Shown here: piece after piece, positions 1-20,965 of the stretch
How positions within the stretch are numbered: position 1 is the stretch's first letter
Layout: each line of letters starts with the position of its first letter
Program-made: the position numbers and the translations under genes
DNA from: Granulosicoccaceae bacterium
GTDB lineage: Bacteria > Pseudomonadota > Gammaproteobacteria > Granulosicoccales > Granulosicoccaceae
Reading direction: 5' to 3'
Assembly (NCBI GenBank): GCA_020629835.1
Contig: JAHDCO010000044.1
Span: 1-32,274, forward strand
DNA length: 32,274 nt
The notes under the pieces: model-generated
Databases searched by the model: none
The model's input: only the letters and a program-made list of their open reading frames with translations
Told to the model about the DNA's origin: nothing

Positions 1-606
1 ATTTTCATCATCCTCAACCACCAGTCGTTTGGTGAATTCTGCCGCTAAAGAGAATGCTTCAAAGCGCACAGCAAGTTCTGCGGAACGCTTCAGTAATGAG
101 ACGTGAGTGACAGATTGAGTGCGTTGCACATCGTGTAGTGCTACAACAATTGAATTCTCTAAACTCCCCTGTATCCCGTTATCAACCTGCTGGACATTTG
201 TGGCTATTTCGCTTGTATTACTGGCTACCTCTGCGTCACCTGTGTTCAAAGACTCGTAATACTTCACCATCAACCGCTCAATGCGTAAAGCCAGCTCATC
301 TTGCTTTGACATACGGACATCTGGACGATCCGCTAGCAGCATCTCCGCTTCGTCAATTCGTCCAGCACGCACTAATGCAGTAGCCGCTTTCAGTACATCC
401 TCAGCAGATTGTTGTGCTGACGCGCGCTCTGCTTTTAAGTAGGCAACATCTAGCTCACTAATACCGGTTTCAACAATAGTATCTTGCAGAGTCAGTGCCT
501 GGCGAGCAGGCGCAATCCAGACAAAGGCTGCAGCAAACCCAGCTATCGCCAGAAGCAGATGCCACGGCTTTAATAATTTTTCACGCTGGGCATCGGAGCG
601 AGACAT
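1..606 (-). CDS. pelB: PelB-like outer-membrane export protein, N-terminal part (runs off the left edge)
   Basis: An uninterrupted reading frame of 202 codons runs from an ATG at 606 to the window edge without a stop, so this is the N-terminal part of a longer protein. Residues about 15-33 form one hydrophobic membrane segment (LLLAIAGFAAAFVWIA). The rest is an acidic/alanine-rich helical region suggestive of TPR repeats (for example the stretch around AATALVRAGRIDEAEMLLAD). Family knowledge: PelB of Pseudomonas is about 1190 residues, with an N-terminal membrane helix, a long periplasmic TPR scaffold that binds PelA, and a C-terminal outer-membrane porin that exports Pel. The start overlaps the end of pelA by 26 bases, supporting co-translation. 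The identity rests on position and architecture, because the porin lies outside the window. About 1000 residues should be missing if the length is typical. Confidence 0.75.
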   Translation of the reverse strand, partial: MSRSDAQREKLLKPWHLLLAIAGFAAAFVWIAPARQALTLQDTIVETGISELDVAYLKAERASAQQSAEDVLKAATALVRAGRIDEAEMLLADRPDVRMSKQDELALRIERLMVKYYESLNTGDAEVASNTSEIATNVQQVDNGIQGSLENSIVVALHDVQRTQSVTHVSLLKRSAELAVRFEAFSLAAEFTKRLVVEDDEN

Positions 607-3600
607 CGCCAGTATCCTTTTGCGTGAAAGAAAATTTAACACCTGCATCGGTACGAACGCCGGCTGTACTGCCCTGGGGTCCGCTGAGTCGACATCCACT
701 GGCGTTTTGTAGGACAACTTCGACGGGCACTTCGGCTTCTACACGAAAATCCAACGAACGCGCATTCTTAATCCATGAACGCAATCGGCCATTAGAGGAA
801 ATCAAATACGGCGTTAAGGATCGCGATTCCTGTGCTTTAAATTTTGCCGCACCTGTGGATGTTGGGTGTATGTATAACCCATCATGTAAGTGTCTTTGAC
901 CTGCCACTCCCACACTGGATTCGATATCAACTTTTTCACGTTTATCCAGCCAACGAATGGATTGCACTTGATTCAGGCCTGATACACGCCAGTACCCATC
1001 CATAGACCGCGACACTTGAGCCGCTCTGAATTCTTTGATTCTTTTGGCGTAATCACTAACAAACAGCGGCGCAATATCCTGAGCTATGGTCCAGTCGTAT
1101 ACTTCACGCATAGCGAGAACGGCAGATATTTTCGTACCGGTGTAGAAATGATAATAAATTCCGATCGGTTTGATTCGCTTCGGATAATCAGTCATTTCGA
1201 AGGTTTCTATTACACGCCGAAACCCATCAAAGGGACCCAACCAGTCGTTGGTGTAAACATTCTCATTCATGATATGAGCGTATACCTGCTCATACTCACC
1301 CACCGGGCGCATCATGGGTGAAATGCGTTCTAAATTTGGGAAAGCTTTAGTAATCGTGGTATTCCCGCCATTGATGTTGGGTAATCCTAAGGCTTCTACC
1401 CGAGCCAATGCTTCAGGCCCCGGTATAGCATCGCCCGACCAAAACACCACAGCAACTTCTTTGTTCGAAGGCGCAAGGTTTTCATTGATGAAGTCAATGG
1501 ATCCATCAATCTCACGTTCGTAGGAGAACGGATAATCAGGCACATTTAAATTGTATTTACCCGACAACTGATTCGGTTTTATGAGCTGCCACTTAAACGG
1601 GTGACTGTAAGTATGGGTTGCCAGTTCTACATGCGGCTCTTCAAAGATCGACCGCATTGCGCTGAACATACGTTCACGTCGGTCGGCAAAGGCTTCTAAA
1701 CCAACCATCTCCCCTTCAACGATGGAAATGGATTGCGGAAATTCATACGGCCCAATGATGACATCATGCAACACTTCAGCGCCTAAGCGCTTACCGGGCA
1801 TTTCAGCCCACGATGGCAACGCATCGCCATCAATGTGCGCCGTTGCAATCCGACGCCCCGCTTGCGTGGTGATGTCCGGTTGTGGAATATTCTGAAGACG
1901 TAATGCGCGTTTAAAAAATTCAAACGGCTCAATTACCCAGTACAAGTTACCACTGGGATCAGTATCAATAAGCCCAGGCGTAACGCCATAAGCACCCCAG
2001 GGGGTATAAGCAACTGCGTCTACCTTAGACTGCTTTTTATCTGACAACGTTAACTGAATATCGTGATCGGCACTGACACTACGCATCGGTGTGCCGAGGT
2101 AGTCAACACGCGGCGAAGGCGGCCGTTCAAAGCCAATCAGATCGGTAGCGTAAGCCACTGACACAGCACCCGGCGTAATGTGTGATCGCTTCAATCCTAA
2201 AGCGTCGAACACAGTGACCGACGCACCCGCACCCACATAGCCCAGAGAAGCATACGGCACGCCGTGATTGATTTGCGCCTGTAACCAACTCGACCAGTTT
2301 GTATTGGAAAACGCAGCTTCTGACCAACTCACAATGCCGGCGTATTGGCCAGCAAGATTCCCGGTGGGTAGTGACTGCTTCGCAAGGTCTACGTACTTAG
2401 GCACATAGCCTAAGTATTCAATGGGCATCGCCACCATGCGGTGCACTAGAGTCTGTTCAACCGGCCCATCGGTTTTACTATCGTATAACATGATGACTTC
2501 ACGAGGGAATACTTCGGTTAAGCCCAAGCCCACCTGATCTAGCCCAGGTGTACTAACCCATGGAATAACGCCATGCTCAGCTATCCTTGCCGCCACTTTA
2601 CGCGCTACATCGCGTTTACTCGGTTCAACATAATCAATCGACAAGGCCTCTAAACCGTAACGATTTCGGGCGTTCATCAGTTGCCCCAGGAGCCAGGCAC
2701 GATCATTCTCCGGTACAGCTTGATACCCACCGGACGCCCCATGCCACCGCGCATATAAAGACTCAGCAGCAATTACTTCAAGATGCTCAGCGATACGCGG
2801 TAATAGTTCAAAACCCCGATTAGCAATTAATCGAATAGAGGGATGTTTTGCTTTCACCGACGCGATAAAGGTTACCAACCCGTCTTGCTGACGCTGCTTT
2901 TCAGCTTCACTGTTTGTTACCAGGTGATAGCTATCCATTGTGTCCAGAAAAAAACCTTCGAACCCACGTTGCTTTAACTGATCCACCCGACGCATAAGAA
3001 ACGCCCGCCAGCCCGGGTTGGCAAGGTCCATTACCTCACTGTTCCAATTCCCGTTTACACCTAACACCCACGAGGAATCGAGTGAACGTCGCCAGGAACG
3101 CGTTGGCCCAACCTCACCCACACTCAAATAGGCAAACAACGCCGAATGCACGTCAGATCCGGAGTTAAACTGAGCAAGTTCTGAATCGGTCACCGCATCT
3201 GCTTCAAGTACGACACGGTCAAATTCATTCAACATCACGACTGGGGGTTTGGCAGCGTAATACAAGGCCACACTCCCTCCTGGCGCGAACTGATCCAGGG
3301 TAAATGCTCGCTGAGCGCTAACAGAACCCGCCGACTCATCCCGACTAAGACGAATGGCATCGCGACCGGCTAAGGTTGCTGCCGTATTCGCCTGTGTTAA
3401 CTCCGGGTTAGCGGCTGTGGTCAGTTGATCGGTGACAGCGCCCACCGCACCACTACTTACAATACCGGTAGGTCCTTCGGCTGACGGAATAGAAATATCA
3501 GACACTAAACGTGACAGTACCGCGGTGGCAACAGACACCACCGAATCACCTAGTTTGCCTGATTCACGATGTTTCTGCCGCCAGACAACCTCATTCGTTT

Positions 3601-3943
3601 TTGTATCAAATACCTGCAGCTCAATGGCTACATCCGGCCTTGATCTTGGTAGCGAAGAGTAAGACCACTGCTCAACTCTACCGGCTAACGCATAGGAAGC
3701 CATTGCCGCCGCATCGGCTTGGGCTGAATCAAACAGATTGCGAACACCACGGTTACGTAACTGATCACCAGCGATAGCTTGCGCACTTTGCACTGCAGAT
3801 AATGTTGTGGACTCATTCTCGAACGGAAGTACCACCCATGCCCCTTCGGGTAGCGGACTGGTTAATTTATCCGGTGATCCTTGAAAGCAACCAGATAACA
3901 GTAGTGCTATTAGCAGGGTGCTAATGAATCGGTAAACGTTCAT
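581..3943 (-). CDS. pelA: PelC-PelA fusion: lipoprotein domain + Pel hydrolase/deacetylase
   Basis: This 1120-residue protein modifies Pel polysaccharide in the periplasm. Residues 1-19 are a lipoprotein signal ending in the lipobox LLSGC (Cys19). Residues about 33-150 resemble PelC. Residues about 220-470 are a GH166/GH114-like endo-galactosaminidase domain (SVGE with Glu277; FFLDTMD). Residues about 690-970 are a NodB-like (CE4) deacetylase with DGD at 705-707 and HTYSHP with His777 and His781. A C-terminal beta-rich domain follows. The 72-residue spacing from Asp705 to His777 equals that of Asp528 to His600 in P. aeruginosa PelA, so the deacetylase is probably active. P. aeruginosa PelA is 948 residues with a cleaved signal and no PelC part; the excess here is about one PelC length. 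The start is fixed by an ATGA overlap with the pelG stop. Phe after the lipobox Cys predicts outer-membrane anchoring. Confidence 0.93.
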   Translation of the reverse strand: MNVYRFISTLLIALLLSGCFQGSPDKLTSPLPEGAWVVLPFENESTTLSAVQSAQAIAGDQLRNRGVRNLFDSAQADAAAMASYALAGRVEQWSYSSLPRSRPDVAIELQVFDTKTNEVVWRQKHRESGKLGDSVVSVATAVLSRLVSDISIPSAEGPTGIVSSGAVGAVTDQLTTAANPELTQANTAATLAGRDAIRLSRDESAGSVSAQRAFTLDQFAPGGSVALYYAAKPPVVMLNEFDRVVLEADAVTDSELAQFNSGSDVHSALFAYLSVGEVGPTRSWRRSLDSSWVLGVNGNWNSEVMDLANPGWRAFLMRRVDQLKQRGFEGFFLDTMDSYHLVTNSEAEKQRQQDGLVTFIASVKAKHPSIRLIANRGFELLPRIAEHLEVIAAESLYARWHGASGGYQAVPENDRAWLLGQLMNARNRYGLEALSIDYVEPSKRDVARKVAARIAEHGVIPWVSTPGLDQVGLGLTEVFPREVIMLYDSKTDGPVEQTLVHRMVAMPIEYLGYVPKYVDLAKQSLPTGNLAGQYAGIVSWSEAAFSNTNWSSWLQAQINHGVPYASLGYVGAGASVTVFDALGLKRSHITPGAVSVAYATDLIGFERPPSPRVDYLGTPMRSVSADHDIQLTLSDKKQSKVDAVAYTPWGAYGVTPGLIDTDPSGNLYWVIEPFEFFKRALRLQNIPQPDITTQAGRRIATAHIDGDALPSWAEMPGKRLGAEVLHDVIIGPYEFPQSISIVEGEMVGLEAFADRRERMFSAMRSIFEEPHVELATHTYSHPFKWQLIKPNQLSGKYNLNVPDYPFSYEREIDGSIDFINENLAPSNKEVAVVFWSGDAIPGPEALARVEALGLPNINGGNTTITKAFPNLERISPMMRPVGEYEQVYAHIMNENVYTNDWLGPFDGFRRVIETFEMTDYPKRIKPIGIYYHFYTGTKISAVLAMREVYDWTIAQDIAPLFVSDYAKRIKEFRAAQVSRSMDGYWRVSGLNQVQSIRWLDKREKVDIESSVGVAGQRHLHDGLYIHPTSTGAAKFKAQESRSLTPYLISSNGRLRSWIKNARSLDFRVEAEVPVEVVLQNASGCRLSGPQGSTAGVRTDAGVKFSFTQKDTGDVSLRCPA

Positions 3944-5352
3944 ACGCTTTCCTCAACCAGCGGTGCCGGGGCTTTATCATTTCGGCGCTCTCTCATGAAC
4001 GTATGGAATTCAATGCTATCGAGCTCACGTCCAATGAGCACCACACCTAAACAGGCAGTAAGCGCCATGGACACACCAAAGCCATAACCGAAATAAACCG
4101 GCCCCCATTGAATAGACAACCAGGTAAACAGCGCATTGGTCACGAACATAAAAAATGTCAGCGCTAGCGCATCCTTCAATTTGTCCAAATAGAAGGCTAC
4201 GTTTAGTACCGCTAACATCAATACCTGTGCCGCTACGCCAACAAGATCAACGTAGTAGAGGTGTACAAATTTCTCGGGTAATTCAAGCCATTTGACAATG
4301 CTGGGCCCAAGCACATAAAGCAACAACACAGTAATGCCCTGCACCCTTACAATCTGAAACAAGCCTTCTCGTACCGCCACTACCATGGCATTACCTAGCT
4401 GCTCGATTTCTTTTAAACTAGCGTTACCACGAACCGCAGCGAAAAACCCTTCATATGCCTCGGCAAATTCAGTTTCAATGGTTAACAGGAAAACGGCCAT
4501 ACCCGGAATGATGCTGAGGTACGCCAGAAATATTGGCAGGTCGTAGATGATTGATGTCCGTAGCGGACCGATTACCATCTCGGAGGTATCCGGATGCAGC
4601 CAGAAAATAATCTTATCGGCCCAAATGCCCAGATTATAGAAAAAACCCACACCAATCAGCATAGGATGAATATTGGGCAGGCGCAGAAAATCCCACCGTA
4701 CTCGTCCGTTCACTGGATATTCAGGAACGATGGCACCCACCATCATAAATACAAGCACCACATGACCAATAAACAAGCCAAGAAGTAACCCTTCCAACCC
4801 CGCAGACATAAAGACAAACGACAGTAATACCGTCACAGAGTAAGCGATGGCAAATGTCCACAGGATAATCTTAAATCGGCGCAAACCCGCTACAAAGATA
4901 ACGGCTATCCAAACAGCGGAAAGCGCAGAAAAGTTTGCGATCATCAGGACTTCATAAGCCAGTGATTCATCAAACAGTGTGAGCGCAAGGATGCCTCCAA
5001 CCACCACACTTGTAATAACACTAAGTAACAGCGCACCAAAAAGGTTGGAGTTAATGATGTCGAATTGACGTTCAAACAACCGGTCGGCAACAAAGCGGGT
5101 AAACATCAGCTGCAGCAATCCGGTAAGAATTAACGAAGCTCCCATCAACCACGTAACTGATGTTGTGAACTGCCTGACCTGGGCATCCACCAGCGCATAA
5201 GACACGGCCACTATGCCAATCAGCATAACGCCCAGAATAGACAGCACCCATGGGCCCGCACTGATCAGACCGGCAAAGCCATACGCTTTGGCAGACCCTG
5301 TAAAGGTGTCATCATTTAGATACTTACGCAGCTCAAAGCCGATGCCAGCCAT
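3940..5352 (-). CDS. pelG: PelG, Pel polysaccharide inner-membrane transporter subunit
   Basis: A 470-residue multi-pass inner-membrane protein with about 12 hydrophobic segments, close to the 456 residues of P. aeruginosa PelG. It begins MAGIGFELRKYL, typical of the family. Family knowledge: PelG is a MATE/Wzx-like transporter that, together with PelD, PelE and the glycosyltransferase PelF, forms the synthase complex and moves the polymer across the inner membrane. The start at 5352 lies two bases after the pelF stop, and the stop overlaps the pelA start as ATGA, so pelF, pelG and pelA are translationally linked. Confidence 0.93.
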   Translation of the reverse strand: MAGIGFELRKYLNDDTFTGSAKAYGFAGLISAGPWVLSILGVMLIGIVAVSYALVDAQVRQFTTSVTWLMGASLILTGLLQLMFTRFVADRLFERQFDIINSNLFGALLLSVITSVVVGGILALTLFDESLAYEVLMIANFSALSAVWIAVIFVAGLRRFKIILWTFAIAYSVTVLLSFVFMSAGLEGLLLGLFIGHVVLVFMMVGAIVPEYPVNGRVRWDFLRLPNIHPMLIGVGFFYNLGIWADKIIFWLHPDTSEMVIGPLRTSIIYDLPIFLAYLSIIPGMAVFLLTIETEFAEAYEGFFAAVRGNASLKEIEQLGNAMVVAVREGLFQIVRVQGITVLLLYVLGPSIVKWLELPEKFVHLYYVDLVGVAAQVLMLAVLNVAFYLDKLKDALALTFFMFVTNALFTWLSIQWGPVYFGYGFGVSMALTACLGVVLIGRELDSIEFHTFMRERRNDKAPAPLVEESV

Positions 5353-5354
5353 AG

Positions 5355-6923
5355 TTAAGAGACCTTACGCTGGTGAGATGAATTCAACGGTTGCCCACTG
5401 TGTTGGGTGTACGCATCACGATAAGTCGCGATCATTTGGTCGTCAGCGTAGTAGGTTTCTACCCGTTCGATCGCGGCTTTACTGGCTTTATGCCACTCGT
5501 CCGGATCCCTTAATAAACCCAACACAGCTTCGGCAAATTCAGTCGGACTCGCCATGGGCACGACAGCGCCAGCAGACCCTATCGCCCGATCTTCTTCGGT
5601 TACGCCAAAGATCAATTCGGAACAGCTTCCCACATCGGTGGTAACTGCCGGAATACCCGCTGCGAAGCCCTCCAGTACGACGAGGGGCTGTCCTTCGGAT
5701 ACCGATGTCAGCACCGACAGGGCAATTTGAGGAAACATTTCCGCAGGTTTCTGAAAACCTTTGAAAATGACCGTGTCTTCCAAATCCAAACTAGCCACAA
5801 GCTGCTTACACTCTTGGGTGTAAATTGGGTCCTCATCTTCGGGCCCAATAAGCCACCCTTGCGCATCCGGTAGAGACGCGCGGATAACGCGCATTGCTCG
5901 GATAAACGTTTTTATGTCTTTTATTGGTACTACGCGACCAATCAAACCAATAACCGGCGGTACAGCCGCTCCTTCCGGACGCCGAACTGCCGCGTATGGC
6001 GCTATGGCAACTCCGTTTGGAATGATTCGTAAACGACTTTCATCGGCGCCGTCTTTAACCTGCCTGCGCCGATTACCCTCATACAAGGTATAAACCTCAT
6101 TAGAGACGGCATAAGTCATTCGGCCTAAAGAATGGAAAAAGCGAATCCAGACCTGCCGCAAGTAGCTCATCTGATCGTTTAAACCCACACGGAATGGGTC
6201 ATACTCTTCAGGAATCCAGTTGACTTGTGCTAAATCCAGTTCACGCTCTTTTGTGTAAATGCCGTGTTCAGAAACCAACAACGGTTGTCCGGTTTTCTGC
6301 TTTAGCAGCGCTCCGAGGAACCCCGCATATCCAGTCGATACCGAATGATAAAGTGCAGCCGGGGGTGCATTTTCAGCAATCGCTGAAAGCACAAACATCG
6401 GCCCATGCATACTTCTGATGGTCCAGAAGTAATGGTTGAAGTCCAATCCTTCCGGCGCTTTTAGATATTGTTTGCGAATGCTTTCCCAAGCCAGTCTATG
6501 ATGCTGTAAGTCATGCTCAGTAACCGGATGTTTACCACTCATCACTTCAGCGAAACCGTGTAGCGTTTCATCGGTAAGCACACCGCTGCGTAAGCTTTCA
6601 TGCATCGCATCGTTGAGTTCAAACGTTTTCTGCAGGCGGCGAGTTCTAAACCATTGCTTTTGAGTTTTAGGGGGTTCGTCCAGCGCATCCAACAGACTAT
6701 GACACTCCACATGCACCACATTGTCTGGAATCTCATACACCGGGGTTTCCATATCTTTTTGACTGGCGCCCAAAAAAATAATGGAGAATGTACGCTCTGG
6801 CAGGCCCTCGATAATCTGCTTAACCCAAGTGGATACACCACCGCGTACATACGGAAAAGTACCCTCCAACAGCAAACAGACATCAGCCTTCTGGGTCGGG
6901 TTAAACGGTAGTTCAGTACTCAT
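5355..6923 (-). CDS. pelF: PelF, GT4 glycosyltransferase that polymerises Pel
   Basis: A 522-residue cytoplasmic GT-B fold glycosyltransferase of family GT4. The N-terminal domain has the PelF-type motif LLEGTFPYVRGGVSTWV (residues 18-34). The C-terminal nucleotide-sugar domain has IGLIGRVVPIKDIKTF (about 325-340) and the EX7E motif EGQPLVVLE (Glu410 and Glu418). The P. aeruginosa homologue is 507 residues and uses UDP-GalNAc/UDP-GlcNAc (family knowledge). The start at 6923 overlaps the pelE stop as ATGA. The upstream epimerase gene in the same operon could supply its sugar nucleotide. Confidence 0.95.
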   Translation of the reverse strand: MSTELPFNPTQKADVCLLLEGTFPYVRGGVSTWVKQIIEGLPERTFSIIFLGASQKDMETPVYEIPDNVVHVECHSLLDALDEPPKTQKQWFRTRRLQKTFELNDAMHESLRSGVLTDETLHGFAEVMSGKHPVTEHDLQHHRLAWESIRKQYLKAPEGLDFNHYFWTIRSMHGPMFVLSAIAENAPPAALYHSVSTGYAGFLGALLKQKTGQPLLVSEHGIYTKERELDLAQVNWIPEEYDPFRVGLNDQMSYLRQVWIRFFHSLGRMTYAVSNEVYTLYEGNRRRQVKDGADESRLRIIPNGVAIAPYAAVRRPEGAAVPPVIGLIGRVVPIKDIKTFIRAMRVIRASLPDAQGWLIGPEDEDPIYTQECKQLVASLDLEDTVIFKGFQKPAEMFPQIALSVLTSVSEGQPLVVLEGFAAGIPAVTTDVGSCSELIFGVTEEDRAIGSAGAVVPMASPTEFAEAVLGLLRDPDEWHKASKAAIERVETYYADDQMIATYRDAYTQHSGQPLNSSHQRKVS

Positions 6924-7951
6924 GTCCAGTACTCCACTACTTGTCTCAACGGTGGGTACTTTTTAAAGGCATCATCCAGCGAGTCCAATAGTTGCTGCAC
7001 CTTTCTGAAATCCCGCTTACCAAAAGCCACTTCAGCAAGATACGGCACTACCTTATCGGCTGGCATACCCAGTGCCATCGCTTTTTGGAACGCTACATCG
7101 GCAGCGTTCAGCTCGCCTGCAGCCAATGACACTCGTCCCAATACCAGGAATGCGTTACGGTTAGTCCGATCTTCATTCACCGACTGTTTGGCAGACGAAA
7201 TGGCTTTTTTTAGCAACTGCTTTCGGGCTACCTCATCCCCTCGTTCCAGTGTAAGTAGCTCCCAATAATTATTGGCAATCTGCAACCACGTTGTACTGCG
7301 TGCACTTTGGCTGCCCTTCTGAGCCACCGCTTCTAAGCGTTGGATTTCAGCATTCAAAGCATTTACTTTGCGATCCAGAATCTGATACGCGGTTAAGCGT
7401 ATGCGCTCATCACTGTGTTTTACCGCTTCCCGTAGCACATCAACAGATATCGAATTTCGGATGTAACTGCTGGAAAGTACCTTTTGATAGAGTGCGTCCG
7501 AGTCTTTTGAATACCGCAGCTGTTCAACAAAACCTCGACTGTCTGGAACAGAGGCCTTTCTACCGCTCGGCGTTGTAAACGGTAGGTCCGTGTTTTCGGT
7601 GATTACGAAATCTGTAGATTCAGCGTCTCGGTTTTTCCACACCCGATAAGCCACGATAAGCGCGATCAGAGAACTGATACCGCCAACACCAGGCATGCAC
7701 AATGTCATGATGCCTAAAAACCATGAGGTGGGTTTGGCTTCGATATTCGTGAAAGACGCTATCCAATTGCCTGTAACCCACCCGAACGCTGCCGCGCTCA
7801 ACGCATGCAAGCCTAGCCAAATCAAGCTGTGTTCGAGAATCTCGAACCAGGGGGAGAGCAACTGCCACAACAACAGTAGCTGCAGCAGAGTCACCAAAAC
7901 TACCAATGCGAAATAGCGAGTACTACGCCACACGACCGGCATCCTTACCAT
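6920..7951 (-). CDS. pelE: PelE, membrane protein with TPR domain
   Basis: A 343-residue protein with hydrophobic segments near residues 14-33, 42-60 and 78-101, followed by a soluble helical region. Residues about 210-335 show TPR-like helix pairs (NAFLVLGRVSLAAGELNAADVAFQKAMALG). Family knowledge: PelE (about 330 residues in Pseudomonas) bridges PelD and PelF in the inner-membrane synthase complex. The start at 7951 overlaps pelD by 29 bases; a second ATG at 7942 has an AAGG too close to serve as its ribosome site, so the first is preferred. The call rests on architecture plus position between pelD and pelF. Confidence 0.88.
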   Translation of the reverse strand: MVRMPVVWRSTRYFALVVLVTLLQLLLLWQLLSPWFEILEHSLIWLGLHALSAAAFGWVTGNWIASFTNIEAKPTSWFLGIMTLCMPGVGGISSLIALIVAYRVWKNRDAESTDFVITENTDLPFTTPSGRKASVPDSRGFVEQLRYSKDSDALYQKVLSSSYIRNSISVDVLREAVKHSDERIRLTAYQILDRKVNALNAEIQRLEAVAQKGSQSARSTTWLQIANNYWELLTLERGDEVARKQLLKKAISSAKQSVNEDRTNRNAFLVLGRVSLAAGELNAADVAFQKAMALGMPADKVVPYLAEVAFGKRDFRKVQQLLDSLDDAFKKYPPLRQVVEYWT

Positions 7952-9317
7952 TGGATTGCCCGTGTGCAGAGCCTACCAATCCAGAAACCCGGTTTACAAA
8001 CTCAAGACAGCTAGCTCGTGTGTCTGATTTACCAAGTTCCATCACATCAATCTCGGCGACCACAGACGGTAATGCGATATCGTGTTTTTTCAGTAGATCA
8101 CTGGCAACACGCCGCAAGTAATCGGTACTTTGCTGGCGATTTTGCAACGGCAGCAAAATCGCGACTGTAGGCCCATCAGATTTCGAAGGCAAAACCCATG
8201 ACTTATCCAGGCTACGTAAATCCGTACTGATCCAGTGCGCCACAGCCCGTGACTTTTCTTTCTTCTCTAGCCGGATACACACTAATGTTGATGGCACTGA
8301 ATGCGATTTGCAAAAACGCAGCGCACTATCAAGCTCAGCCAGGAACCATGCGGTACGTGAGGTACTACGCCCTTCTGAGCGGCTGAGTAGGTCACCCGAG
8401 TAACCACCGAGCAGTGCCAGGACATTTAAATTTTCCTGCTGAAATGCCATGAAATGCATTTCGCGCACAGCAAGAATGCCATGCAGACGACCGCTGGAAT
8501 CAGCAATCGGCACTACGGCAATTAAAGAATCATCGGTGGTATCCACACTGACTGAATCAATGCGTAAGCTAGCCAGTTTTCGTTGCTTTAGCGCTTCCCG
8601 AATCAGCGGATCAAAAACCGGTAGCTCACCCATTTGCCCGTGAGTCGCTATGGGTTTGGGGTCGACCAAGGTGTCTGTTTTCATTGAATACAAACCGGCC
8701 ACTTGCACAGAGCAAAACTGAGCAAACACCGCCATGAGCTCACTACCGGCCTTAATACCTTCGGGCGAAGAAGTAAACACCGGCGATAAGGCCTGCAAGG
8801 CCGAACGCAAACTTAAACGTTGCCCCGCCATAAATTCTTCCAGATGACCATGGGAGACTTTTAAGACGTGATAATCGTTAGAAAATTCTTTCAGACGATG
8901 CCGTAAGTAAGCGTTTTCAGCTTCAGACTGATTACTGCGTGTACGCCAACGATCCGATGAACCACCGACGATAACCGCCAAACATAAGGTTCCGATTGCC
9001 ATAACCGTTCGCTGTGCCAGGGTGCCTTCAAGCAGCATAAACGGCTGCACCAGCATAAGGCCGGCAGTCAAGGCACATAATGCTCCCCAACTACTGCCGT
9101 ATCGAGCGGCGTAAACAATCGGTAAGGCAGCCACCCATAGGTAGCCTGAGGCCAAACCTAAAGAGTGTTCTTTAAATAACACAGCCCCCAGGATTGCCGG
9201 GACCAAAGCAAAAAACGGCAGCTCCATCAGTCGCTGCCGATTACTTCTTTCGGCACCGGAGATCAGTGCTTCACGCGCTCGTTTTCGTAACGCTTTAAAC
9301 AATTGGGAGGATGTCAT
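7923..9317 (-). CDS. pelD: PelD, c-di-GMP receptor with GAF and degenerate GGDEF domains
   Basis: A 464-residue inner-membrane receptor that activates Pel synthesis when c-di-GMP is bound. The N-terminus has about four hydrophobic segments (residues 31-120), then a helical linker (128-165), a GAF-like domain (about 170-310) and a GGDEF-like domain (about 320-450) with no GGDEF signature. An RxxD I-site is present as RSLD (Arg368, Asp371), with Arg402/Arg403 downstream. In P. aeruginosa PelD the ligand-binding residues are Arg367, Asp370 and Arg402, an almost identical numbering and spacing, so c-di-GMP binding is probably retained. It starts 6 bases after the pelC stop. Confidence 0.94.
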   Translation of the reverse strand: MTSSQLFKALRKRAREALISGAERSNRQRLMELPFFALVPAILGAVLFKEHSLGLASGYLWVAALPIVYAARYGSSWGALCALTAGLMLVQPFMLLEGTLAQRTVMAIGTLCLAVIVGGSSDRWRTRSNQSEAENAYLRHRLKEFSNDYHVLKVSHGHLEEFMAGQRLSLRSALQALSPVFTSSPEGIKAGSELMAVFAQFCSVQVAGLYSMKTDTLVDPKPIATHGQMGELPVFDPLIREALKQRKLASLRIDSVSVDTTDDSLIAVVPIADSSGRLHGILAVREMHFMAFQQENLNVLALLGGYSGDLLSRSEGRSTSRTAWFLAELDSALRFCKSHSVPSTLVCIRLEKKEKSRAVAHWISTDLRSLDKSWVLPSKSDGPTVAILLPLQNRQQSTDYLRRVASDLLKKHDIALPSVVAEIDVMELGKSDTRASCLEFVNRVSGLVGSAHGQSNGKDAGRVA

Positions 9318-9323
9318 GTCGGT

Positions 9324-9848
9324 TTACAGATTCGGTTGAACCCGCACTCCTTCCAGTAATTCATCCACAAGTTTCTGACCCACGGTTGACAAGGAGGAGA
9401 AACCCCATCCTGCTTTTGCAGACGTAGCCTGCCAAACAACACGGCCAGTTTGTACATCAGTCAGGCTTAAGCTCAGCGCAACGGATGGCTCTCTGTCTGG
9501 ACCATTTTTGTAATGCCATTCATGCACCGTTCCGGACAACGCCAGTGGCAAGCCAGACTCCTGTGCCCAAGCTTTGCCCGGTGCCGAGTTAGTCGATGTT
9601 TCCAGCAACGCACTTAAACCCAATGCCTTAGGCGCATTGTATATTTCAAGATCCGCTACACCACGTGAACGCAACACTGACTCTGCGATCGTGGCAACTT
9701 GTTCACCGGCTAAAGGCGTAGAGGACAAGTTGCTGATCGGCAAAATCGCGATGCCCTGTGAGCTACTGATGCTCACCGCAGGTGTCGTTGTTACTGTGCT
9801 GCATGCCGTGGCACACAGCAGTAAGGCTGCAAGCCAAAGCGATTTCAT
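9324..9848 (-). CDS. pelC: PelC, outer-membrane lipoprotein of Pel export
   Basis: A 174-residue lipoprotein with signal MKSLWLAALLLCATAC (Cys16, followed by Ser, predicting outer-membrane sorting). The mature part has the motifs GIAILPISNLSS, LRSRGV and GRVVWQ, which also occur in order in the N-terminal domain of the PelA in this operon (WVVLPFENES, LRNRGV, NEVVWR). P. aeruginosa PelC is 172 residues and forms a dodecameric ring under the outer membrane that funnels Pel to the PelB porin (family knowledge). The ATG at 9848 overlaps the epimerase stop codon (TAATG), which fixes this start over an upstream ATG at 9896. Confidence 0.88.
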   Translation of the reverse strand: MKSLWLAALLLCATACSTVTTTPAVSISSSQGIAILPISNLSSTPLAGEQVATIAESVLRSRGVADLEIYNAPKALGLSALLETSTNSAPGKAWAQESGLPLALSGTVHEWHYKNGPDREPSVALSLSLTDVQTGRVVWQATSAKAGWGFSSLSTVGQKLVDELLEGVRVQPNL

Positions 9849-14122: not shown

Positions 14123-15892
14123 CTAAAACTGCCCGAAGATCGACGTGAGCGTAGATAGCGGACTAAAGAAGTCGCTTAATGTCAAAGCTAGTTCACGGAT
14201 GTTGGTCACATCAGAGTCGTAGCACGCCAATGCATCGCCCGGCATTAAATAAGGATTCACATCCAACCGGTTCGGTTCACGTAACAACCGATTGATGGAA
14301 CGCTCGGTGACTGACAATTCCCCGGTTATGTAGTCTTTTGTGATCAAGACTGTGCGGCGTGCCGCATTAACGCTTTGCGCACCGCCCACACAGTTCATAC
14401 TGGTTAAGGCCTGCACCACCCGCGTTCCGTAGGGTACTGAGGCTTCCTCCTTCTCATTGTTAGACAACGCATTATTGAAGACAGGTGCTGTTGCGTTCGA
14501 CTGATAGACACGAATACCCGGAGGCGTCACCTGCGTAGGCGTCACGAGGTTATGATCAAAGCGCCCCGTGCTGGGTACGATGACTTCATCTCCGGATATC
14601 AAAGGCACATCGCGAACCAGTTCACCGTGAACCAGCCCCGCAAGGTCAACCGGTATGGTTTCCCCGTGTCTTAGAATTTGAATGCCAGCCAAGTCAGCAT
14701 CAGGCCGAACACCACCGGCTGCTCTGAGTGCTGCGCTGATTAATCGCCCACCGCCGGCGTCACCACCATCTCTCAAACTTTTCAGCGCACGATTTTCTGC
14801 GATGGCCGCGTTAACCGTGACGCGCCCCTTATTAAAGACAGCGCCCCGCACGTAAACCTCAACACCTGCCCACTCAACCACGTGAGCGGCCACATTCACC
14901 GCACTTCGGCGAACCAGATGTCGGTCCACCAGTTGATCGGATATCACCGCTTGAATGGCAGGGATGGTTAACCCTGCAACCGTTTGACGGCCCAGCAACG
15001 GGATATTGATTCCACCGCCTAATGACACCTCATAAATACCATTCCAATCTTCATCGCCGGCGATTCGAATTTGTAGCTGATCACCCGGAGACACGGGCAG
15101 ATCGCCTTCAAACGCTTCCAACCGATTCCGTTTTGCTTGATCCGTCATTGAAGGTACGGCTGCAACCTGTAAGGCTGTGCCGGTCGCGAGTGGGCCAGCT
15201 TGACCTGGCAAGGAGCACAGCGTGGTATCAATATTGGTTGTGTCCGCTCCATCGGAGATGATGCGCACATCCACGCGTCGGTCGGTTGCTAACTCGGACA
15301 CGTTGTCACGGGCGTGCGATTTGGATTCGCCCAAGCTGAGTACCCGAGTGTTCACGGGCCGTTCAAGGTTGTTTAACAACCACGTCCTTACCGATTCAGC
15401 GCGATTCAGCGCCAGCGTGTAGTTATCAGAAGCGCTACCCCGTAAATCTGCATGACCGACTAATTCGATTCGTTTGATGTTTGGATAAAACGCGAGCCGG
15501 CGCTTAAGCTGGCGCAGGATGGCATCCCCGGCCACCGAGATGTCATGTATCGAAGTATCGAATAAGGCATCTGAGGCAAGCAAGACATCGTCAACGACCA
15601 AATCGTTATCCACCCCGTTACCGGCCTGAACGCTACAAAAGCCCTCGAGTGAACCCAGTCGCCAGACCGTGCGTTCTTTAGAAACTGTTCCTTCAAGACG
15701 ATGGTCGTATTTATCCGACTGAATGGGCAGCGATCCAGCGACCGCGCGTACCGGGCCCGTGTCCGAGTTATTGGATAGGGCGTAACATCCGGTCACCGCC
15801 ACAGCCACAACAACACACAATGACGCCTTATATATAGAACGCAGCAGTCGCACTACCCTGGAGGTAGCGCGTAATGAGTTTTCAGGCAGCAC
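14123..15892 (-). CDS. OmpA-Wza fusion lipoprotein: peptidoglycan-binding + polysaccharide export
   Basis: A 589-residue outer-membrane lipoprotein that should form the EPS export channel and hold on to the cell wall. After a signal with lipobox AVTGC (Cys36), residues about 100-215 are an OmpA-like domain (ELVGHADLRGSASDNYTLAL, then NRAESVRTWL, then RRVDVRI). Residues about 265-350 are a Poly_export domain (VSPGDQLQIRI, INIPLLGRQTV), followed by SLBB-like segments. The C-terminal 23 residues ending in SIFGQF are amphipathic and may be the Wza-type membrane helix. I prefer the GTG at 15892 because AGGGAGGG lies 5 bases upstream; the ATG at 15934 in the same frame has no ribosome site. It overlaps the STAS gene by 11 bases. 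Confidence 0.87.
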   Translation of the reverse strand: MLPENSLRATSRVVRLLRSIYKASLCVVVAVAVTGCYALSNNSDTGPVRAVAGSLPIQSDKYDHRLEGTVSKERTVWRLGSLEGFCSVQAGNGVDNDLVVDDVLLASDALFDTSIHDISVAGDAILRQLKRRLAFYPNIKRIELVGHADLRGSASDNYTLALNRAESVRTWLLNNLERPVNTRVLSLGESKSHARDNVSELATDRRVDVRIISDGADTTNIDTTLCSLPGQAGPLATGTALQVAAVPSMTDQAKRNRLEAFEGDLPVSPGDQLQIRIAGDEDWNGIYEVSLGGGINIPLLGRQTVAGLTIPAIQAVISDQLVDRHLVRRSAVNVAAHVVEWAGVEVYVRGAVFNKGRVTVNAAIAENRALKSLRDGGDAGGGRLISAALRAAGGVRPDADLAGIQILRHGETIPVDLAGLVHGELVRDVPLISGDEVIVPSTGRFDHNLVTPTQVTPPGIRVYQSNATAPVFNNALSNNEKEEASVPYGTRVVQALTSMNCVGGAQSVNAARRTVLITKDYITGELSVTERSINRLLREPNRLDVNPYLMPGDALACYDSDVTNIRELALTLSDFFSPLSTLTSIFGQF

Positions 15893-16223
15893 GCTGCCCT
15901 CCCTGCTCAGTGTTGAAGATCGTGAACACCTCATGCAACCGTGTTAACTCGAGCAAGGTCAGTACCTCGTCACTGATATTCACCAACGCAAAGGCACCTT
16001 CTTGCTTCTGAACGCTCTTCATGACACTCACTAAGGCTGAAAGACCGCTTGAATCGATGTACGACACCGCAGACATGTCCAAGTGCAGCACGCCGCACCC
16101 GTTGTCGTAGATAACGATCAATTCATCAGCAATTCCCGCACTCACAGACGCGACCAAGCGCCCATTTAGTAAGACCAAGTCACGGTCTTCGTGGGCTTGA
16201 TGATCTAGCGAAATCACGCGCAC
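15882..16223 (-). CDS. STAS-domain protein (anti-sigma factor antagonist type)
   Basis: A 113-residue single-domain STAS protein. The signature YIDSSGLSAL (residues 55-64) carries the serine that is phosphorylated in SpoIIAA-type antagonists (Ser58 here and Ser58 in B. subtilis SpoIIAA). Such proteins bind a serine kinase/anti-sigma partner when unphosphorylated; no HPK-like kinase or PP2C phosphatase is encoded in the window, so the partner must be elsewhere. It is the first gene of the minus EPS arm and overlaps the export gene, so it is likely a regulator or structural adaptor of this locus. The start is a GTG at 16223 with a GAGAG ribosome site directly upstream; a downstream start is possible. 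Confidence 0.87.
   Translation of the reverse strand: MRVISLDHQAHEDRDLVLLNGRLVASVSAGIADELIVIYDNGCGVLHLDMSAVSYIDSSGLSALVSVMKSVQKQEGAFALVNISDEVLTLLELTRLHEVFTIFNTEQGGQRAA
15897..15904 (-). promoter_or_regulatory. Strong ribosome-binding site deciding a GTG start
   Basis: On the minus strand AGGGAGGG precedes GCAGC and GTG at 15892. It is a near-ideal Shine-Dalgarno sequence at normal spacing and lies inside the end of the STAS gene, which is why the OmpA-Wza protein is annotated from this GTG. Confidence 0.65.
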
Positions 16224-19010: not shown

Positions 19011-19054
19011 GCAATCACTGGGGACTTTAAAACCACCCGTTGGGAGATAACACT

Positions 19055-20965
19055 ATGATGCCCGATCGCCAACATCGAGTAGTATTTGACAGGCTATCCG
19101 CTTCTGCTGTCATTTTGTTTCTAGCACCGATCTTGTTAGCGCGTGCTGTGCAAGCAAAATACAGAACAGGACGTATCTTCGACCGGCAAAACCAGGCCGA
19201 TGGTCGTCATGCACTGTTACGCTTCGCTGGCATTCCAAAAGGTAGAAACCTGGCGTTATTACTTAACGTTGCGGCTGGCACAGTGGCTTGGGTGGGGCCT
19301 CCCGTTTTACCTGCACACAGACGCCGACGTGCAGGCGATTTGCCTTTGTCCGAATTGCGTCCAGGTTTAATTTCTGTCTGGCGCTTACAACAACTGACCG
19401 GTTCAGCGTACGACGAACGGCCTCGACACGCCTCGTACCCAAACCACACGTTAAAAGAATCTATCGCGATAATGCTTCGCTATGCAGTGGCTCGCAGCCT
19501 CGGTGTAAATCCTGCTGCGCCTAAGCCCGACACGTTTACTATGCTGGGCGTTAGCATATCGAACTTATCCATTGAAGGCAGCTTAGAGCGCATCAAAAAC
19601 GCGATCGATTCAAGGGAAGCCACGCAGTTTGCGTTTGTAAACCCGGACTGCTTAAATAAGTCGTATAACGACCAACAGTACACGGACACCTTAAATCAGC
19701 TGCCGACTGTATTTGCTGACGGCATTGGTATTCGCATTGCGTGTAAACAGCTTGGTATTGGGTTACGCGATAACATCAATGGCACCGACCTCTTCCCGCT
19801 GATCTGTGCACAGGCAGTAGAACACGGTCATTCTATCTATTTTCTAGGTGGCGCTCCGGGCGTTACCGATACGATGATAGAGAGAATACGCAAGCAATTC
19901 CCTGCATTGAACGTAGCAGGTCATCGCAACGGGTTTTTCGAACCACACGAAACGCCTGCCGTCATTGATGAAATTAATGCCAGCAACGCCGACATCTTGC
20001 TTGTTGCATTCGGCGCACCGTTACAGGAGTTCTGGTTAAACGAACACCACGATGCACTCAACCCAACCGTTCGAATGGGCGTAGGCGGCTTGTTCGACTT
20101 CTACACCGATCGCATTTCTCGAGCGCCTCGCTGGCTTCGTGATATCGGAATGGAATGGACCTGGAGGCTGCTGCAGGAGCCAGGCCGCATGTGGCGTCGT
20201 TACCTGGTGGGTAATCCGTTGTTTTTATACCGCGTGCGTAAGGAAGCCAAACAAGTACGAAGAACCGCAGCCATTCATCGGTACAGTGATTCTCGCCTGG
20301 GTTTTGGAAGCGCGGTACTTCGATATCGGGTTCGACACTTCTTCTGGACGTTGGCCGTGTTGATTGGTCGTGTACTGAAACGGCTCTTAGACATTGTGGT
20401 ATCCACGTGCGCGCTGATCGCTCTGTCACCGTTGTTACTGATTGTCTCCGCCTTGATTAAATTAGAATCACCCGGCCCATTGGTGTTTTCTCAAGTTCGA
20501 GTGGGTCAATACGGTCGCTATTTCACGATGTATAAGTTTCGCTCCATGCGGACTGATGCGGAGGAAATCAAGAAGAAGTTAATGGAACAAAACGAAATGG
20601 ACGGTGGCGTTCTGTTCAAGATGAAACACGACCCCCGGGTAACGAAAACCGGACGTTTCATTCGCAAGTATTCCATTGATGAATTACCGCAGCTGTGGAA
20701 TGTATTAAACGGTTCGATGTCTCTGGTTGGCCCGCGCCCGCCTGTGCCGTCGGAAGTGGACCAGTACAGCATTCAGGACAGACGCCGTTTGGGTGTAAAG
20801 CCTGGCATAACCTGTATCTGGCAAGTATCCGGCCGAAGTGAAATTGCTTTTGCCGAACAAGTGGAACTGGATGTCGACTATATCGAATCTCATGGATTCT
20901 TAACGGATATAAAAATACTCTTTAAAACAATCCCTGCTGTTTTACTTGGAAAGGGAGCCTACTAA
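19055..20965 (+). CDS. Three-part enzyme: degenerate sugar transferase + WecG/TagA GT26 + active sugar transferase
   Basis: A 636-residue protein that probably starts and extends the lipid-linked repeat unit. Residues about 8-150 resemble a bacterial sugar transferase (phosphoglycosyltransferase) but lack the catalytic Asp-Glu (only fragments such as NVAAGTVAWVGPP and LRPGLISVW remain). Residues about 160-400 are a GT26 WecG/TagA/CpsF domain (FVNPDCLNKSYND, FADGIGI, FLGGAPGV, AFGAPLQEFW). Residues about 440-636 are an intact sugar transferase: hydrophobic segment, SPGPLVFSQVRVG, YKFRSMRTDAE, SIDELPQLWNVL with Asp542-Glu543, SLVGPRPP and KPGITCIWQVSGRS. The ATG at 19055 has GGGAG 8 bases upstream; the TTG at 19040 is rejected. 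Confidence 0.9.
   Translation: MMPDRQHRVVFDRLSASAVILFLAPILLARAVQAKYRTGRIFDRQNQADGRHALLRFAGIPKGRNLALLLNVAAGTVAWVGPPVLPAHRRRRAGDLPLSELRPGLISVWRLQQLTGSAYDERPRHASYPNHTLKESIAIMLRYAVARSLGVNPAAPKPDTFTMLGVSISNLSIEGSLERIKNAIDSREATQFAFVNPDCLNKSYNDQQYTDTLNQLPTVFADGIGIRIACKQLGIGLRDNINGTDLFPLICAQAVEHGHSIYFLGGAPGVTDTMIERIRKQFPALNVAGHRNGFFEPHETPAVIDEINASNADILLVAFGAPLQEFWLNEHHDALNPTVRMGVGGLFDFYTDRISRAPRWLRDIGMEWTWRLLQEPGRMWRRYLVGNPLFLYRVRKEAKQVRRTAAIHRYSDSRLGFGSAVLRYRVRHFFWTLAVLIGRVLKRLLDIVVSTCALIALSPLLLIVSALIKLESPGPLVFSQVRVGQYGRYFTMYKFRSMRTDAEEIKKKLMEQNEMDGGVLFKMKHDPRVTKTGRFIRKYSIDELPQLWNVLNGSMSLVGPRPPVPSEVDQYSIQDRRRLGVKPGITCIWQVSGRSEIAFAEQVELDVDYIESHGFLTDIKILFKTIPAVLLGKGAY

Follow-up and report, generated by a model that had tools for sequence, protein, structure and literature searches.

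A PelC homologue with a predicted lipobox at the N-terminus of the Pel hydrolase/deacetylase PelA in Granulosicoccaceae

What does a relative of the exporter lipoprotein PelC do at the front of PelA, the hydrolase/deacetylase of the Pel polysaccharide system? The question is raised by contig JAHDCO010000044.1 of a Granulosicoccaceae bacterium (assembly GCA_020629835.1), one entire contig of 32,274 nucleotides referred to here as the window, in which the pelA open reading frame (ORF; minus strand, 3943..581, 1120 amino acids) begins with a PelC-like segment. It bears on a point of disagreement between two 2025 papers, namely whether PelA touches the PelC ring. In its available text, one of them suggests that PelC may help PelA through contact with subunit K and calls the need for a PelC ring puzzling, as the exporters of cellulose and poly-N-acetylglucosamine (PNAG) need no such lipoproteins (PMC12141448); the model in the available text of the other, a PelA structure paper, shows no PelA-PelC interaction (PMC12022489). 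In this study, we report that the PelA N-terminal domain is a PelC homologue with a predicted PelC fold and without the residues that mark PelC as a ring subunit, and we propose with moderate confidence that a PelC relative has been remodelled into a lipidated anchor at the outer membrane, cationic in character, which tethers PelA next to PelB.

The whole of PelA was searched against the PDB using phmmer and matched PelC (9h80_C) over residues 5-151 with an E value of 2.2e-7, while the first 157 residues alone matched PelC at E=2.3e-10 in a single-sequence search of the same database. A profile of 17 fused-domain sequences, run against the PDB at E up to 10, returned four matches, all of them PelC (E 2e-24 to 7e-23), and its profile-profile comparison with PelC of the clade plus one outgroup gave a probability of 99.9. 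In the genome of the window, the fused-domain profile (E up to 10) matched two places, PelA and PelC. An AlphaFold2 model of residues 19-158 was obtained at a mean predicted local distance difference test (pLDDT) of 85.5; its top 19 Foldseek matches were PelC chains (best E 7e-13), and VIA placed PelC at Z 16.7-18.0, the next family being CsgG at Z 13.8. By sequence, profile and predicted fold, the domain (about residues 33-153; 3485..3847, minus strand) is a PelC homologue, which bears out what an earlier sequence-only reading of the window had claimed. LpoB, DUF4136 and CsgG were judged less likely sources of the domain on scores far under those of PelC, with the proviso that being missing from a list of matches is no proof. 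The Pfam LpoB model matched the PelA domain below its gathering score (domain E=9e-4) and 7 of 17 fused-domain members at E up to 0.01 (best 3.1e-5), and LpoB structures ranked far below PelC in Foldseek.

Residues 1-19 (3887..3943, minus strand), previously read as a lipoprotein signal, end in the lipobox LSGC in the translation, with Cys19 as the putative lipid-attachment site and Phe at +2. The lipobox-like Cys was found in 19/19 fused homologues, one of which (G013) has Ser at -3, and Asp at +2 was found in none of the 19. The window PelA lacks an ordinary Sec signal and has the lipobox and PelC domain in its place; in the plain PelA of sister genera a short, ordinary-looking signal (judged by eye) lies immediately ahead of the hydrolase. 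The PelA of P. thermotolerans is described in the available text with a predicted Sec signal at residues 1-22 (PMC12022489), to which the window protein adds the lipobox, the PelC domain and a linker.

That linker, residues 154-222 (3278..3484, minus strand), was delimited by low confidence in the full-length model. The PelC domain probably hangs on a flexible linker, because residues 154-223 have pLDDT below 50 in that model, itself of low overall confidence (mean pLDDT 71.0, predicted template modelling score 0.52). Among 18 fused proteins the linker length ranges from 46 to 74 residues (limits set by hidden Markov models, HMM). The excess length of PelA had been taken as one PelC length; the extra PelC domain stands, whereas the equivalence in length does not, the domain being shortened mid-way to about 120 residues and followed by a linker of about 65.

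The remainder of the protein corresponds to PelA. The hydrolase domain (residues 223-480; 2504..3277, minus strand) was placed by alignment to the PelA structure and a Pfam GH114 match, and the rest, including the deacetylase (584..2503, minus strand), by alignment to PelA of Pseudomonas aeruginosa (PaPelA). In phmmer the body matched Pseudomonas PelA (9CGY; CE21 deacetylase plus hydrolase) over residues 223-1118 at E=4.2e-172. The hydrolase pair D334 and E394 aligned with PaPelA D160 and E218, and the deacetylase base D705 and metal triad D707, H777 and H781 with D528, D530, H600 and H604 (offsets counted by hand on the alignment; residue roles as given in the available text of PMC12022489). 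All six residues were invariant in 12 fused sequences, and on this alignment the catalytic residues of both activities are in place in fused PelA.

In order to survey the fusion, 48 genomes of the order were searched, of which 34 had PelA. Their N-termini were classed as fused in 19, plain in 12 and undecided in three. The fused set comprises 15 genomes of the window's genus, three of genus g468 and one of g467, and the plain set 11 genomes of g469 and one of g466. Among the undecided, G010 has only the C-terminal half, G774 starts at a contig end, and G788 has the PelA N-domain at a contig end with the remainder on another contig, as expected of a fused gene split in assembly. An assembly or frame error as the cause of the fusion is very unlikely, since 19 genomes carry it. 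In a class sample of 369 genomes PelA was matched in 21, two of them of the window's genus; in the other 19 no PelA match started before residue 205, and six started at residue 263 or later, their N-termini not having been compared. In a phylum sample of 398 genomes PelA was matched in 33, one being the window's genome; no match in the other 32 started before residue 193, and 12 started at residue 266 or later. The two samples overlap, G030 and G247 giving matches in both. When the class sample was also scanned with the PelC-domain profile, scoring no more than 10 candidates per genome, 18 genomes gave matches, and the 17 matches outside the genus (in 16 genomes) were in ORFs of 175-232 amino acids. 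An HMM check of the collected loci found 143 ORFs with a PelA body, 43 of them with a PelC domain and all 43 from the window's family; several loci contain the same gene. In the samples searched, the fusion was seen only within that family, and rare fusions elsewhere are possible.

Other arrangements of pelA and pelC were noticed in these searches. In several phylum genomes (e.g. G502, G537 and G541) PelA is split into a hydrolase ORF of about 290-360 amino acids and a separate deacetylase ORF. Two neighbouring PelC-like ORFs lie near a PelA split into separate ORFs at G335:C87:7159-8243. Two Nitrospirae loci (L111:2360-5281 and L112:1796-4999) hold a single ORF that seems to join PelG to the middle and deacetylase parts of PelA without the hydrolase, and both loci end inside that ORF.

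A tree of PelA (39 rows) contains one change of state, with a support of 83 for the fused set. A single gain is the simplest reading of this tree, although the support of the fused set is not strong. The fused domains group together as a single clade in the PelC tree (support 100/99). Left unconstrained, that tree placed them apart from the PelC of the family (98/92), a placement that long branches may have distorted. A duplication of the pelC belonging to this clade gave p=0.327 in the approximately unbiased test with three long rows left out, and is neither shown nor rejected as the origin. A separate second pelC ahead of pelA, as an intermediate would have, was found in none of the 11 plain sister operons read.

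In order to ask whether the domain could still serve in a ring, it was compared with PelC at positions of known function. In the cryo-electron microscopy structure of P. aeruginosa PelBC, as reported in the available text of PMC12141448, Asp119 in the D-loop docks on PelB arginines, Trp149 packs the lipid anchors between subunits and stabilises the complex (W149A left PelB alone isolable), and residues 70-98 form a loop-helix cap. Asp is present at position 119 in 0/19 fused domains (R100 in the window), Glu at 121 in 0/19, with Arg or Lys in 14 and Asp in three (R102 in the window), and Trp at 149 in 0/19, with Arg or Lys in 11 (K130 in the window). The same residues were found in most of 34 PelC sequences, D119 in 32, E121 in 34 and W149 in 30 (one has Phe, and three rows end before 149), and the stand-alone PelC of the window has equivalents of all three. 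The cap segment spans 10 residues in the window PelA against 29 in P. aeruginosa PelC, and 5-18 residues in 15/17 fused domains. The core was retained, A50, L62 and W112 being kept in 17/17 fused domains and N43 in 15. The net charge of loops 115-122 and 147-151 runs from -2 to 0 in PelC and from +1 to +6 in fused domains, two separate ranges, with means of -0.39 (31 of the 34 rows, the three cut rows dropped) and +2.71 (17 rows, positive in 17/17), whereas the rest of the domain has no comparable shift (-1.0 in PelC, -2.0 in fused domains). As the fused rows share one origin, this change of signature represents one event retained, not seventeen.

Selection on the domain was assessed next to that on its neighbours. 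Across 91 genome pairs the median identity was 27.9% for the fused domain, 45.9% for PelC and 51.8% for the PelA body, and the fused domain lay below PelC in 91/91 pairs; the basic loops were retained throughout this divergence. The ratio of non-synonymous to synonymous substitution rates (dN/dS) in three close pairs was 0.19-0.29 for the fused domain, 0.07-0.10 for PelC and 0.08-0.09 for the PelA body. These values are rough (dS 1.0-1.4), and only three pairs are quoted because four further pairs were mostly saturated at synonymous sites, one of them also lacking PelC. On these sequence comparisons, the fused domain is under purifying selection that is weaker than that on stand-alone PelC. 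With D119, E121 and W149 gone, most of the cap deleted and constraint reduced, the ring signature of PelC is lost and the domain is probably not a ring subunit. A first comparison also suggested that the anchor had freed PelB to drift, an idea that was dropped because PelB divergence did not differ clearly between fused and plain genomes at similar PelF/PelG identity, where few pairs overlap.

A separate PelC is encoded in 18/18 clade operons readable that far, namely 17 of the 19 fused genomes and the probable case G788; in G014 and G770 the available stretch ends before pelC. The clade's stand-alone PelC has Asp119 in 15/16 sequences (Glu in one) and Trp149 in 16/16. Position 120 (P. aeruginosa numbering) is Lys or Arg in 16/16 sequences of the fused clade, Asn in 11/11 plain sisters and Gly in 7/7 outgroups. 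Long, often proline-rich C-terminal tails were observed on PelC in the plain sister clade (L141-L150, L154) and in L151 and L152; PelC from the window's genus showed no such tails.

The mechanism that we favour runs as follows. In an ancestor of Granulosicoccus and two sister genera (g467 and g468), a single event would have fused a duplicate of PelC, or of a near relative of it, to the start of pelA, replacing the ordinary secretion signal. The product would carry a lipid on Cys19 and be delivered to the outer membrane, at its inner face; under the Lol sorting rule, a lipobox without Asp at +2 directs a lipoprotein there, and outer-membrane sorting is expected because the lipobox has no Asp at that position. 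The PelC-fold domain, now with a cationic face, would lie on the membrane and act as the anchor, and the linker of 46-74 residues would let the hydrolase/deacetylase body reach the tetratricopeptide repeat (TPR) scaffold of PelB, so that PelA stays beside the export channel with or without binding by PelB, the ring still being built by the separate PelC. Tethering of the two-activity enzyme, put forward at the export ring in the sequence-only reading, remains the natural expectation, at the outer membrane, from PelC homology, the lipobox and fusion to a PelA with catalytic residues. PelA of P. aeruginosa depends on PelB repeats 9-14 for its outer-membrane location, according to the available text of PMC12022489; in the fused clade the anchor alone could place PelA at the outer membrane. 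As the pelB of the window is truncated, the PelB repeat region was looked for in the relative G021, which has it. The basic loops, whose PelC counterparts face membrane or pore, fit a single anchor on anionic phospholipid, or docking to an acidic protein surface, and fit the PelC position in the ring poorly, as there an acidic loop meets arginines.

Several observations weigh against such an anchor. A full PelC domain is kept under purifying selection although a lipobox alone would suffice for anchoring, which hints at a further role, about full-length caps occur in 2/17 fused domains, the cationic face could bind protein and not lipid, and the full-length model is weak. The substitution at position 120 of PelC hints that the ring is affected, but it may have arisen on a single branch. 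The absence of W149 and D119 does not in itself preclude a ring of twelve with one aberrant subunit. The sequence-only reading had raised the possibility of a mixed ring, in which one or more of the twelve PelC would be exchanged for the PelA N-domain, fixing PelA at the ring. PelC homology, predicted fold and lipobox are all compatible with this, and the available text of PMC12141448 adds that PelBC models with 11 or 13 PelC are similarly confident and proposes that PelA reaches PelC subunit K. Against it stand the absence of D119, E121 and W149 in every fused domain, the reduced cap, a separate PelC in each readable clade operon, the lower conservation of the fused domain in all genome pairs, and the single 1:12 stoichiometry seen in P. 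aeruginosa (PMC12141448, available text). The residue signature demoted the mixed ring from its place as the leading reading; it is the weakest part of the sequence-only interpretation and now looks unlikely. A variant that we regard as rather improbable makes the N-domain a charge-inverted collar subunit in or against the PelC ring, one per PelB, with Lys/Arg120 of PelC as its counterpart; it would fix one PelA per channel and pass the deacetylated chain to the pore.

Without being a ring subunit, the domain might instead use its cationic loops to dock from outside on an acidic surface, either on PelB or on the PelC ring, and so position PelA. Basic residues were gained in two loops and not elsewhere in the domain, PelC position 120 changed in the same clade, and the domain was retained as a fold and not merely as a signal. 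The partner surface is only hypothetical, anionic phospholipid would explain the charge as well, and the lack of a clear difference in PelB divergence between fused and plain genomes (few pairs overlapping) speaks against such docking, which we consider unlikely. Little credence is given to the view that the lipobox alone matters, with the PelC domain as a remnant spacer that drifts because constraint on it is weak. Fast evolution of the domain relative to PelC favours it, but dN/dS well below 1 in the three close pairs, the kept core residues and a loop charge that is positive in 17/17 domains do not. The outer-membrane anchor is retained here as the preferred explanation.

Set against known systems, the parts are familiar and the joining is new, with a PelC relative that seems to have departed from the ring. 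The fused domain resembles PelC (5T0Z, 5T10, 5T11, 9H80), the dodecameric lipoprotein of the Pel exporter, in fold, lipobox Cys and core residues, and differs in being joined to PelA, in its mostly deleted cap, in the missing D119, E121 and W149, in its cationic loops and in its weaker constraint. The body is like Pseudomonas PelA, with the same catalytic residues. PgaB of the PNAG system is a lipid-anchored deacetylase/hydrolase at the outer membrane that is not known to have a PelC-fold domain; the proposed PelA would share with it the outer-membrane tethering of a two-activity enzyme, the polymer being different. In the BcsZ-BcsC fusion (PMC7112194, available text), a periplasmic enzyme is likewise joined to an export component. 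The available text of this operon survey discusses fusions and pelA rearrangement and names no PelA-PelC fusion, and none was named in the open-licence literature searched, supplements being outside its scope. A clade in which PelA is joined to a PelC relative, beside unfused sisters, offers a natural experiment on PelA-PelC contact and a source of constructs for trapping PelA at the channel.

On the minus strand the pel operon reads galE-pelC-pelD-pelE-pelF-pelG-pelA-pelB, with pelA flanked by pelG and pelB. Only the first 202 codons of pelB (1..606) lie in the window, overlapping the 3' end of pelA and truncated at the contig end; full-length pelB occupies the same place in relatives. On the other side of pelA, and all on the minus strand, are pelG (3940..5352; Pfam PelG, E=8e-140), pelF (5355..6923; NCBIfam PelF, E=7e-195), pelE (6920..7951), a TPR protein with weak TPR matches that was named from gene order, pelD (7923..9317; Pfam PelD_GGDEF, E=2e-12) and the stand-alone pelC (9324..9848), whose start was placed at MKSLW, the listed ORF extending to 9896. 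Further along, an outer membrane polysaccharide export (OPX) protein (14123-15934, minus strand) carries an OmpA domain ahead of its Poly_export domain, and a WecG-type glycosyltransferase is fused to a bacterial sugar transferase (19040-20965, plus strand) in a second polysaccharide cluster that adjoins the pel operon.

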